64,000 nt of DNA from Haematobacter genomosp. 1 (GTDB taxonomy: Bacteria > Pseudomonadota > Alphaproteobacteria > Rhodobacterales > Rhodobacteraceae), in NCBI RefSeq assembly GCF_002196855.1, contig NZ_NIPW01000034.1:1-64000 (forward strand), read 5' to 3'. Position 1 is the stretch's first letter; each line of letters begins with the position of its first letter. The notes under the pieces were generated by a model that was given only the letters and a program-made list of their open reading frames with translations, was not told the origin of the DNA and ran no database searches. The position numbers and the translations under genes are program-made. Below, piece after piece: positions 32,325 to 62,970 of the stretch.

Positions 32325-32406
32325 GGCATCCTCCGCGGGCGGCTTCGGGGCTTCCGCAGTTTTTCCGGTGGTCGGGCTTCCGGTGTCCGTTGCCCATTGG
32401 TCTGTA

Positions 32407-32797
32407 TGCGCGGATGGCCTGTAAGCCGGATTTTGTCCGGGGGCGGACCCCCTGGATGACCATTCCTCTAGGCCCGGAGTTACCTCCGGGCTCAAGCTGC
32501 CAACCCGGGCCTCCGGGCTGAAGCGTCCCTGCCTCCGCCGGAGCGGAAGGCGCGAGGCCCCTATTCGGCATTGCTCCCGGTGGGGCTTGCCAAGCCGGTC
32601 CTGTTGCCAGTCCCGCGGTGGGCTCTTACCCCACCGTTTCACCCTTGCCAGCGGCGAACCGCGGGCGGTCTGTTCTCTGTGGCGCTTTCCCTCGGGTTGC
32701 CCCGGCCGGGCGTTACCCGGCACCGTTGCTTCATGGAGTCCGGACTTTCCTCGCGGGCCTTGCGGCCCCCGCGGTCATCCGGCCATCCGCGCGGGGA
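32407..32797 (-). ncRNA. rnpB: RNase P RNA (type A)
   Basis: The minus strand carries the universal RNase P RNA segments. GAGGAAAGTCCGGAC (complement of 32738-32752) lies near the 5' end, and ACAGAGAACAGACCGCCC in the middle (CR-II/III). The 3' end has CCGGCTTACAGGCC. The ends pair as helix P1 (GCGCGGATGGCC with GGCCATCCGCGC). This places the molecule at about 391 nt, the catalytic RNA that matures tRNA 5' ends. Exact ends are approximate. Its promoter must lie within the 3' part of the amidase gene upstream. Confidence 0.93.
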
Positions 32798-61125: not shown

Positions 61126-61414
61126 GGCCCCGTAGCTCAGCTGGATAGAGCAACCGCCTTCAATTGGAGTGCGCGTCGGGAAACCGGCGCTGCAGAACCT
61201 GTCAAATTCGGGGAAACCTCTGCCCTGCGGCGTGGCAATCCCGAGCCAAGCCCCATTTCGGGGAAGGTGTAGAGACTGGACGGCAGGCACCCGCCCCGCT
61301 ACCGCGGAAGGGTGAAGGGACAGTCCAGACCACGAAGGGCCTCCGGCCTGCGGCGAAAGCCGAAGTGGTAAGCTAAGCGGTTGGTCGCAGGTTCGAATCC
61401 TGCCGGGGTCGCCA
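61126..61414 (+). tRNA. tRNA-Arg (UCU), interrupted by a group I intron
   Basis: Exon 1 is 61126-61160 and exon 2 is 61373-61414; joined they form a 77-nt tRNA with encoded CCA. The acceptor GGCCCCG pairs with CGGGGTC. D arm is GCTC-GAGC. The anticodon arm becomes ACCGC-CTTCTAA-GCGGT, anticodon UCU (reads AGA). T arm GCAGG-TTCGAAT-CCTGC. The intron lies between anticodon positions 34 and 35. Without splicing the tRNA cannot work, so the intron must be removed in vivo. Confidence 0.93.
61161..61372 (+). ncRNA. Group IC3-like self-splicing intron in tRNA-Arg
   Basis: A 212-nt intron without any reading frame. P1 is CTT|C-AATT-GGAG, which places the obligatory U-G pair at the 5' splice site, and the last intron base is G (61372). 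The core matches the Azoarcus tRNA-Ile intron closely: TGTCAAATTCGG-GAAACCT, GAGCCAAGC, GAAGGTGTAGAGACT-GACGGCA, GTGAAGG-A-AGTCCA, and GGCGAAAGCC near the 3' end. It should excise itself with a guanosine cofactor. It belongs to the small tRNA-intron class known from alpha- and betaproteobacteria. Confidence 0.93.
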
Positions 61415-62060
61415 GTCTGCTTGTAAGGTGTTGACGTAGCGTCATAAACCTGACGGTTCCGGTCCGGGCTTCCAAATCTTGTTCCCTGATCATTCCAGGG
61501 AGTGGCCTCCTGCGCCGCGCGGCGATCGAGCATCGCCACACCCCGGTGCATGCTTCGCGACCGGTTTCTGTCGCAATCCGGTGCACCGTTTCCCGGCTTC
61601 GGTGAACGCACTCGTCTGCACCTTTCTCACCCCGTGGGCTCTTGCCCCTCTGATATCGGCTTTTGCTGCGGCACAGGGGAACCGGGCGCTGAAAGCCCGC
61701 TCCGTGACAAGCCATGTCATGTGCCTCACCACCTCGGAGATCACCGCTTTCAGGGTTCCAGGTCGCCCGTTCCCCCTTCTGTCAACCCTGACTGCGCCCC
61801 GCCGCACGCGGTCTACCCATCCACCTCCGATGAGGCGGACGACGCGACCGGTGTAAGTCCCGGATGAAAGACCGATGAAAAGACTTCGGCGAGCAGGCCA
61901 AGACGACCGCTGAGGACGTTCAGTAGAACCTGGCCCGCGCCCTGCGCGAAAGCAGCGGGAAACCCGCCTCTCTGCAAGAGGGCTATCCCTCCGAGCAAGC
62001 GCACCGGGACGGGAGTCGCCGCGCTTGGGCGGCCTCGTAACTGCTTCTGGGGAAAGGGGT
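61415..62060. other. Long intergenic stretch after tRNA-Arg
   Basis: 646 bp with no credible gene. It contains CCCTGATCATTCCAGGG (an inverted repeat near 61480-61500) and a short tandem GATGAAAGACC/GATGAAAAGAC at about 61865-61885. The right part is the distal end of the minus-strand RNA array that begins at 62452, and may hold its 3' processing or termination site; no T-run terminator was found. Confidence 0.45.
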
Positions 62061-62136
62061 GCGGCAGCCTCCGGGGAGGAGGAGAGGAGGCTGCCGCTGT
62101 ATGACGATCAAGCCAGGGAGGAGGAGAGGCCGATCG
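62061..62136 (-). ncRNA. CcsR/cuckoo-type sRNA, unit 4
   Basis: Two hairpins. One (62061-62097) has a perfect 12-bp stem, GCGGCAGCCTCC/GGAGGCTGCCGC. The other (62105-62136) has stem CGATC--GCC/GGC-GATCG. The gap between them is 7 nt. Each loop contains CCTCCTCCC on the minus strand (complements of 62074-62082 and 62116-62124). Last unit of the array in transcription order. Confidence 0.85.
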
Positions 62137-62171
62137 CATTCTGTCCGGTCTGTCCCGACCGGGAGGGGGAT

Positions 62172-62246
62172 GCGGCGGCTCCAGGGGAGGAGGAAGGAGC
62201 CGCCGCTCTCGCCTGCGATGCGACCCAGGGAGGAGGAGGGGTCGCA
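62172..62246 (-). ncRNA. CcsR/cuckoo-type sRNA, unit 3
   Basis: Two hairpins 12 nt apart: 62172-62206 (perfect 11-bp stem GCGGCGGCTCC/GGAGCCGCCGC) and 62219-62246 (8-bp stem TGCGACCC/GGGTCGCA). Each loop has the exact CCTCCTCCC motif on the minus strand (62185-62193, 62228-62236). A small GC hairpin, CCGGTC/GACCGG (62145-62162), separates it from unit 4. Confidence 0.85.
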
Positions 62247-62284
62247 GCGCATCTGTTCCGGCATGCTCCGCCGGAGGGAGGTGA

Positions 62285-62352
62285 CAGCGCTCCGGGGAGG
62301 GAGGAGGACCGCTGCCTATTCACGACAACCCGGGGAGGAGGAGGGGCTGCCG
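62285..62352 (-). ncRNA. CcsR/cuckoo-type sRNA, unit 2
   Basis: Two hairpins 8 nt apart, 62285-62314 and 62323-62352, each with CCTCCTCCC in the minus-strand loop (62299-62307, 62333-62341). In the second, the minus strand pairs as nine base pairs including two G-U wobbles (CGGCAGCCC with GGGTTGTCG). On the plus strand these would be A-C mismatches, showing that the minus strand is the functional RNA. Confidence 0.85.
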
Positions 62353-62386
62353 CAAAGTCTGGAACCCGAAGGCCCCGTATTCCGGC

Positions 62387-62452
62387 GACGGCACTGGGAG
62401 GAGGAGTGTGCCGTCACCTTTCCGATCGCCCAGGGAGGAGGAGGGGCGATCG
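62387..62452 (-). ncRNA. CcsR/cuckoo-type sRNA, unit 1
   Basis: Two hairpins 7 nt apart: 62423-62452 (perfect 9-bp stem CGATCGCCC/GGGCGATCG) and 62387-62415 (perfect 8-bp stem GACGGCAC/GTGCCGTC), each with CCTCCTCCC in the minus-strand loop (62433-62441, 62396-62404). It begins 9 bp after the stop codon of the DUF1127 gene, with which it is probably co-transcribed and from which it is cut out by RNase. Confidence 0.87.
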
Positions 62453-62461
62453 AAATCCTTT

Positions 62462-62674
62462 TTACTTGCCGTAAACCGCTTCGCGGGCCACGGAGTAGAT
62501 CGAAGAGCGGCTGAGTTGCAGATCGGCAAGCTCACGGTCGCTCAGTTCCCGCAATTCGGCAACGGTTTGCCGATACAGGCGGCGCTGCGCCCAGGCTTCG
62601 CGGACACGGGCAACGAAATCGCTCAGGCCCGAAGCATTCTGGGCCGCCCCATGGGTATGGTTCAGGTAGGCCAT
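62462..62674 (-). CDS. ccaF1: DUF1127 family RNA-binding protein, CcaF1-like
   Basis: A 70-aa basic protein. The C-terminal half is a DUF1127 domain (RRLYRQTVAELRELSDRELA, then DLQLSRSSI), with the Arg/Leu-rich helix-turn-helix-like form of the family. In Rhodobacter sphaeroides the CcaF1 protein of this type is encoded directly before four CcsR RNAs, binds RNA and helps their maturation and turnover; the same order here supports the name. The start is ATG at 62674. The gene is made under stress (RpoH-type) promoters in Rhodobacter; here TTGTGC-16-TATGTT (62741-62768) is a possible promoter. Confidence 0.9.
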   Translation of the reverse strand: MAYLNHTHGAAQNASGLSDFVARVREAWAQRRLYRQTVAELRELSDRELADLQLSRSSIYSVAREAVYGK

Positions 62675-62740: not shown

Positions 62741-62768
62741 AACATACGCCTATGCTGCGACTGCACAA
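62741..62768 (-). promoter_or_regulatory. Promoter candidate of ccaF1 and the sRNA array
   Basis: On the minus strand TTGTGC (complement of 62763-62768), 16 bp, then TATGTT (complement of 62741-62746). The predicted start lies about 60 nt upstream of the ATG at 62674. A CTTG-type RpoH -35 element is also present further up, so the sigma factor is uncertain. Confidence 0.35.
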
Positions 62769-62970
62769 TGGGGGGGAGGGGCAATCCGGCCATGCACAAG
62801 ATGCATAACCCATGCTGACCTATTTTTCGCGACGAATTTCCCCAGTAAAACTGGCCTTCTGGGCCGGGATGGTGTTCAGTCTGCCACGATCTGCCCCGAA
62901 GAGGTGGCGAAAATGTCGCAGTTGCAGGGGTTGCGGTTCCGGGGCCCCGGCGCTGCAGGAAAGGGAAAAG

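Follow-up and report, generated by a model that had tools for sequence, protein, structure and literature searches.

On the minus strand of the window, the 64,000-nucleotide stretch of DNA analysed here, positions 62061–62674 very probably hold a ccaF1–CcsR (cuckoo/CIN1) operon whose transcript would be processed into trans-acting sRNAs with anti-Shine–Dalgarno (aSD) loops. This kind of locus is already known, from Rhodobacter, and Haematobacter adds a member to it. We make no claim that its spacer hairpins or its promoter block are unpublished, our search having covered open-licence papers; in that literature, 'Haematobacter' and 'sRNA' occurred together in no paper. The anatomy, the conservation and the promoter block are read directly at the array locus, which is laid out as follows, with aSD hairpins delimited by local folding and three-species comparison.

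62792..62805, minus strand: TGCA-N6-GCAT inverted repeat, a box of LysR type (T-N11-A); TGC-N7-GCA in relatives
62763..62768, minus strand: −35-like TTGTGC, in 79/80 upstream regions (best 80 of 189 relatives)
62741..62746, minus strand: −10-like TATGTT, 16 nt behind TTGTGC; [CT]AT[GCA]TT in relatives
62462..62674, minus strand: ccaF1-like gene, open reading frame of 70 aa, DUF1127 (PF06568, E 1.1e-10)
62420..62455, minus strand: unit 1, hairpin A, aSD loop
62384..62418, minus strand: unit 1, hairpin B, aSD loop
62361..62376, minus strand: spacer hairpin 1, 6 bp, UUCG loop (p 0.033 versus shuffles)
62319..62356, minus strand: unit 2, hairpin A, aSD loop, G-U pairs
62283..62316, minus strand: unit 2, hairpin B, part of the motif can pair
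62257..62275, minus strand: spacer hairpin 2 (p 0.017 versus shuffles)
62214..62251, minus strand: unit 3, hairpin A, aSD loop
62169..62208, minus strand: unit 3, hairpin B, aSD loop
62145..62162, minus strand: spacer hairpin 3, which folds, not better than shuffles (p 0.30)
62101..62139, minus strand: unit 4, hairpin A, aSD loop
62061..62097, minus strand: unit 4, hairpin B, aSD loop on a 12-bp stem

The window contains ten exact copies of CCTCCTCCC, whereas 100 shuffles of the window gave a mean of 1.44 copies and none reached 10; eight of the ten lie within 62074–62441 on the minus strand. Local folding places a stem of 10–13 pairs around each of the eight, so that the eight hairpins of the original prediction are real (62061–62455). 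Two stems, at motifs 62299–62307 and 62116–62124, are interrupted near the loop, with 3 and 4 unbroken loop-adjacent pairs, respectively; the other six have 8–13 unbroken pairs adjoining the loop. The predicted placement of the motif in a loop of 12–13 nt holds for 7 of the 8 hairpins but not for 62283–62316, where the first two motif letters can pair. The grouping into four pairs stands, with gaps between pairs of 27–31 nt (34–38 nt in the earlier count) that are plainly longer by either count; the gaps within pairs, earlier given as 7–12 nt, become 1–5 nt with extended stems and depend on the stem end chosen. As had been noticed, the stem sequences of the window's units all differ, and the stem that needs G-U pairs is 62319–62356, for which the sister species have A-U at two of the G-U places and both sister Haematobacter species have U-A in place of one C-G. 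The loop motif had been equated with the anti-Shine–Dalgarno core of 16S rRNA; CCUCCU is common to the motif and the usual 16S tail, but the two are not identical, and a 16S tail pattern had no match in the species' own draft genome (4.2 Mb in 81 contigs). The last hairpin in the window is not followed by a T-run, and the only terminator-like site, 61886–61901 on that strand, does not exceed chance level (0.7). Open reading frames of up to 151 aa overlap the array; we set a protein-coding reading aside, and the RNA reading rests on pairing.

Tandem hairpins with CCUCCUCCC loops and differing stems, as found at 62061–62455, are one mark of cuckoo/CIN1 loci, and another, also found here, is a small DUF1127 gene immediately upstream in the same orientation. 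The predicted CcaF1-like gene is borne out by the PF06568 match, and its product is 100% identical to that of H. missouriensis CCUG 52307 and 96% identical to that of H. massiliensis CCUG 47968, which assigns the window to a Haematobacter genome (Rhodobacteraceae). The cuckoo RNA family and the CIN1 loci of alphaproteobacteria were reportedly described by Reinkensmeier and Giegerich in 2015; compared through excerpts of citing papers, that family has DUF1127 and CcsR-like aSD RNAs in common with the Haematobacter locus, and the comparison turned up no difference. The gene order, the loop motif and the pairing in twos likewise match the published CcsR1–4 operon of Rhodobacter (Cereibacter) sphaeroides (excerpts of PMC10253847), as the original prediction had proposed: a DUF1127 gene stands first in both, 70 aa here and 71 aa there, and four sRNA units with aSD hairpins follow in both. 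For the R. sphaeroides operon a Rho-independent terminator is described (excerpts of PMC10253847), in contrast to the Haematobacter array with its missing T-run.

The Rfam covariance model of R. sphaeroides CcsR1 (RF02791) matches all four units significantly (E 9.1e-9, 4.3e-8, 4.3e-5 and 8.7e-5), yet the best score of 43.1 bits stays below the gathering score of 65.3, and ar14 (RF02344) likewise reaches 57.3 bits at the locus against a gathering score of 58.8; ar14 matches occurred in 15 of 289 genomes of the class, none over the cut-off. Such models lose power on the diverged stems of CcsR-type RNAs (PMC3927594). Because both scores fall below gathering, we class the locus as a CcsR-like member of a broader group and do not count it as an RF02791 hit. 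The ar14 family, alpha-r14/NfeR1 of Sinorhizobium meliloti, shares with the Haematobacter locus its aSD loop, stems that vary freely and a TGCA-N6-GCAT box upstream of the promoter (in the published excerpts). NfeR1 is, however, described there as a 123-nt sRNA of three hairpins with its own sigma-70 promoter, and those excerpts mention no DUF1127 gene for it, whereas the Haematobacter array has one.

The arrangement recurs among relatives. We surveyed the loci of the best 80 of 189 DUF1127 relatives, counting loops as sense-strand CCTCCTCC, each without a stem check. A chain of loops starts within 150 nt behind the DUF1127 gene in 79/80 of them, which is not an unbiased rate because the query was built from array-bearing relatives and the best 80 of 189 were taken; the one locus without loops (L115) is cut off by a contig end. 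A less biased set consists of the best DUF1127 match of 30 genomes (33 had a match among 61 searched) and counts the window's own locus and two sister species; 26/30 of these loci have at least one sense-strand loop within 900 nt, with a maximum of 15 (L038). The two sets overlap, and the relatives are not independent. In the best 80 of 189, the chain has 1 to 14 loops, most commonly 10 (19 loci) or 8 (15 loci). The four double hairpins of the prediction are therefore present in the window but represent one size among many, the number not being fixed in relatives. In Cereibacter ovatus, a species of the genus to which R. sphaeroides is now assigned, the spacing of the 8 loops sets them in four pairs. 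Such natural variants in loop number behind related genes make the dose of an aSD regulator comparable. The last aSD hairpin ends in TTTT in 41/75 arrays (best 80 of 189, 5 left out because they had under 4 loops or insufficient sequence), although not in the window, and in those 41 it may therefore double as an intrinsic terminator. Several relatives, L037, L038, L041, L084 and L118 among them, have arrays of 13 to 15 aSD loops, and in L041 the B hairpins of units 2 to 6 are equal in energy and the spacers nearly identical, as if these units had been duplicated in tandem not long ago.

The stems are also maintained under change. Across three Haematobacter species, 108 pairs in 11 helices (8 aSD and 3 spacer helices) show 0/324 cells unpaired, compared with 32–48% of cells paired in slid structures used as a control. 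Twelve of the 108 pairs vary, 11 of them on one side and 1 on both; with three sequences a shuffle test has little power, and 148/500 shuffles were as good as the real alignment. Elsewhere, ten further close groups show differences at 118/1505 aSD pairs, of which 79 keep pairing and 39 break, and in non-aSD stems 71/258 pairs differ, of which 24 keep pairing. Stems failing to co-vary in related genomes would have counted against the original prediction, and what we found instead were fully paired Haematobacter stems and, elsewhere, pairing kept at most changed aSD positions. Preservation of aSD stems by compatible or compensatory changes is a further mark of cuckoo/CIN1 loci. With arms re-dealt between loci as a control, 8.6% of hairpins have at least 7 unbroken pairs, versus 318 of the 714 real hairpins (best 80 of 189 loci); in the window 6/8 do so and two fall short.

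These observations leave practically no probability to a functionless chance or satellite-like C-rich tandem repeat. Such a repeat would sit well with the commonness of CCTCCTCCC in the genome, 209 copies in 4.2 Mb and not above the 242 of the reversed control. We rejected it despite this lack of genome-wide enrichment because the arms pair and the position behind one gene is conserved (79/80 of the best 80 of 189); compatible changes moreover keep the stems, and similarity to H. massiliensis stops sharply just behind the last hairpin, unit 4 hairpin B (62061–62097).

A second alternative is that the array serves mainly as a sponge or as a cis-acting 3′ UTR of the DUF1127 mRNA, acting on stability or titrating the DUF1127 protein or Hfq, and is not a source of trans-acting sRNAs. 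The first aSD stem begins 6 nt behind the stop codon of the DUF1127 gene, sense-strand loops follow the gene in 79/80 loci (best 80 of 189), loop number runs from 1 to 14, as that of a buffer might, and CcaF1 binds RNA (excerpts of PMC10253847). The loops, however, stay CCTCCTCC while the stems change, which fits base pairing with mRNAs, and the aSD loops of the related NfeR1 repress a reporter unless they are mutated (excerpts of PMC10746234). We consider the sponge or cis-acting role very unlikely.

For the preferred reading, a processed operon of trans-acting aSD sRNAs, the model is the R. sphaeroides operon, for which co-transcription, involvement of RNase E and CcaF1, and control by RpoHI/RpoHII are reported (excerpts of PMC10253847, PMC8625941 and PMC8307010). 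We infer by analogy that this behaviour would hold in Haematobacter, with cut sites and targets as predicted below. Transcription from one stress promoter would run across the DUF1127 gene and on through its 3′ UTR, and cleavage of that UTR, most likely by RNase E within the between-unit spacers and influenced by the DUF1127 protein, would yield some four RNAs of two hairpins each. Base pairing of the exposed CCUCCUCCC loops with ribosome-binding sites of the GGGAGGAGG type would then reduce the translation of a set of mRNAs, perhaps including those of transport and C1 genes. The part of CcaF1 in maturation is not simple, as the available excerpts differ: CcaF1 promotes CcsR maturation in one study (PMC10253847), and raised amounts of it interfere with maturation in another (PMC8307010). 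For DUF1127 proteins, contact with the protein PhoR is a further mode of action (excerpts of PMC12501420).

The spacers between units contain small hairpins of their own. Of the three inverted repeats noted there originally, 62145–62162 and 62257–62275 were recovered, and the third proved to be the hairpin at 62361–62376 and not the full 62358–62386; described as the weaker one, it in fact stands out from shuffles, whereas 62145–62162 does not. Spacer hairpins 1 and 2 were scored on the identical sequence of H. missouriensis. In the three Haematobacter species, spacer hairpin 1 changes a G-U to A-U in H. massiliensis, spacer hairpin 2 has two one-sided changes that keep pairing, and the pairs of spacer hairpin 3 are invariant. 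For a wider view, we collected 97 distinct stretches between loops spaced 58–75 nt and dropped 8 that contain the letters CTCCT or CCTCC (3/8 from Haematobacter, including the counterparts of the window's spacers 2 and 3). Compared with dinucleotide shuffles, 60 of the 89 remaining spacers reach p<0.05, with a mean z of −2.10, which upholds the idea that spacer hairpins are a recurring part of these arrays; with the dropped ones included, 65 of all 97 do so, as did 26/43 in an earlier, overlapping set. Among the 88 readable spacer hairpins, 74 have a stem of 5 or 6 bp and 49 a loop of 4 nt. Co-variation is weak, 8/22 changed pairs keeping pairing in 15 spacer stems of close groups. Arrays with at least 4 loops lack any gap of at least 58 nt in 5/76 cases, and some further arrays mix spaced and compact stretches; spacer hairpins are therefore not indispensable.

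With moderate confidence, we predict by analogy that the spacer hairpins are processing signals, perhaps marking RNase E sites. RNase E commonly acts where single-stranded RNA adjoins a small stem, and the same feature speaks against reading the hairpins as folding insulators, which would prevent pairing between the C-rich loops and adjacent G-rich sequence, or as weak pause sites, unconnected with processing in either case. Also against those roles, RNase E matures the CcsR RNAs of R. sphaeroides (excerpts of PMC8625941), and cuts must therefore fall between units. Small stems between units are nevertheless what an insulator or pause site would need, and the stretch ahead of the spacer stem has 57% A+T, a modest excess because shuffled spacers folded alike give 48%. 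As this control weakens the A+T sign, we raised our estimate for insulators or pause sites, which are now a real possibility, if short of probable.

The promoter block upstream of the DUF1127 gene recurs in almost all loci of the best 80 of 189. Behind the TTGTGC element, [CT]AT[GCA]TT follows in 71/80 loci (best 80 of 189), at 16 nt in 4 and at 17 nt in 67, and TGC-N7-GCA lies 36 or 37 nt 5′ of TTGTGC in 73/80 (best 80 of 189), compared with 30/2248 control windows of equal length. The strict form TGCA-N6-GCAT is exact at the window's own locus and present in 28/80 relatives (best 80 of 189). In the less biased set, box and TTGTGC occur together in 20/30 loci, comprising 20/26 with aSD loops and 0/4 without. 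The TTGTGC-N16-TATGTT of the window is compatible with the TTG/TAT carried by RpoHI/RpoHII promoters (excerpts of PMC10673084), the promoter type of the R. sphaeroides operon (excerpts of PMC10253847). A genome scan for the block with one mismatch gave 9 places versus 7 in the control, which is noise apart from two exact places. Apart from the window's own, the genome has a single exact TTGTGCANNNGCAGCA (L196, G000:C8:35823), which lies upstream of an open reading frame that by eye resembles an ExeA-type ATPase.

The box has the form of the LsrB box reported upstream of rhizobial NfeR1, of which LsrB is the activator (excerpts of PMC10746234), a mark of LsrB-controlled aSD sRNAs (NfeR1, AbcR1). 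LsrB itself as the regulator is spoken against by its being held unique to Rhizobiales (excerpts of PMC11975290) and by the VtlR box form of Agrobacterium and Brucella, GCAT-N3-TG-N3-T (excerpts of PMC7486931), which occurred in 0/79 upstream regions from the best 80 of 189. A search for ar15, meant to lead to the lsrB gene, returned nothing in 190 genomes, controls included. Our best guess is that a LysR-type protein reads the box. The spacer hairpins as processing sites and the LysR-type box as transcriptional input are now testable features with defined positions.

More broadly, the operon in Rhodobacteraceae might be an expandable string of modules, each of hairpin A, hairpin B, a single-stranded cutting stretch and a small spacer hairpin, joined to a LysR-type switch that reads a near-LsrB box, as part of an old alphaproteobacterial circuit also serving most of the dispersed two-hairpin loci in the Haematobacter genome. 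We regard this as unlikely, having lowered our estimate because the VtlR form is absent. The genome has four dispersed two-hairpin aSD loci, L070, L074, L077 and L079 (G000:C7:1321-1415, C64:156290-156379, C73:187247-187332 and C73:37357-37440), with a core 99–100% identical in three and 87% identical in the fourth, and with differing flanks. Similar loci number 2 in H. missouriensis and 3 in H. massiliensis, and a TGC-N7-GCA box lies upstream of 7/9 dispersed two-hairpin copies.

Candidate targets of the putative sRNAs come from ribosome sites. GGGAGGAGG occurs 3–9 nt before ATG at 15 places in the genome, versus 5 for the reversed control, and 4 of the 15 are real-looking starts. These four belong to a PQQ-dependent methanol/ethanol dehydrogenase gene (TIGR03075, 524.6 bits), to the TRAP transporter components DctP and DctM, and to a protein that combines GAF and sigma-54 interaction domains. 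The site of the dehydrogenase is the same in the three Haematobacter species, as expected of any strong ribosome site; because C1 metabolism is subject to the action of CcsR RNAs in R. sphaeroides (excerpts of PMC10253847), this gene is a sensible first candidate and no more.

Elsewhere in the window, a tRNA-Arg(TCT) gene (61126–61414, plus strand) is interrupted within its anticodon loop by a group I intron of 212 nt at 61161–61372 (RF00028, 49.7 bits versus a gathering score of 50); ARAGORN missed the split gene in the window but calls the joined exons tRNA-Arg(tct). An ordinary class A RNase P RNA lies at 32406–32790 on the minus strand (294 bits).
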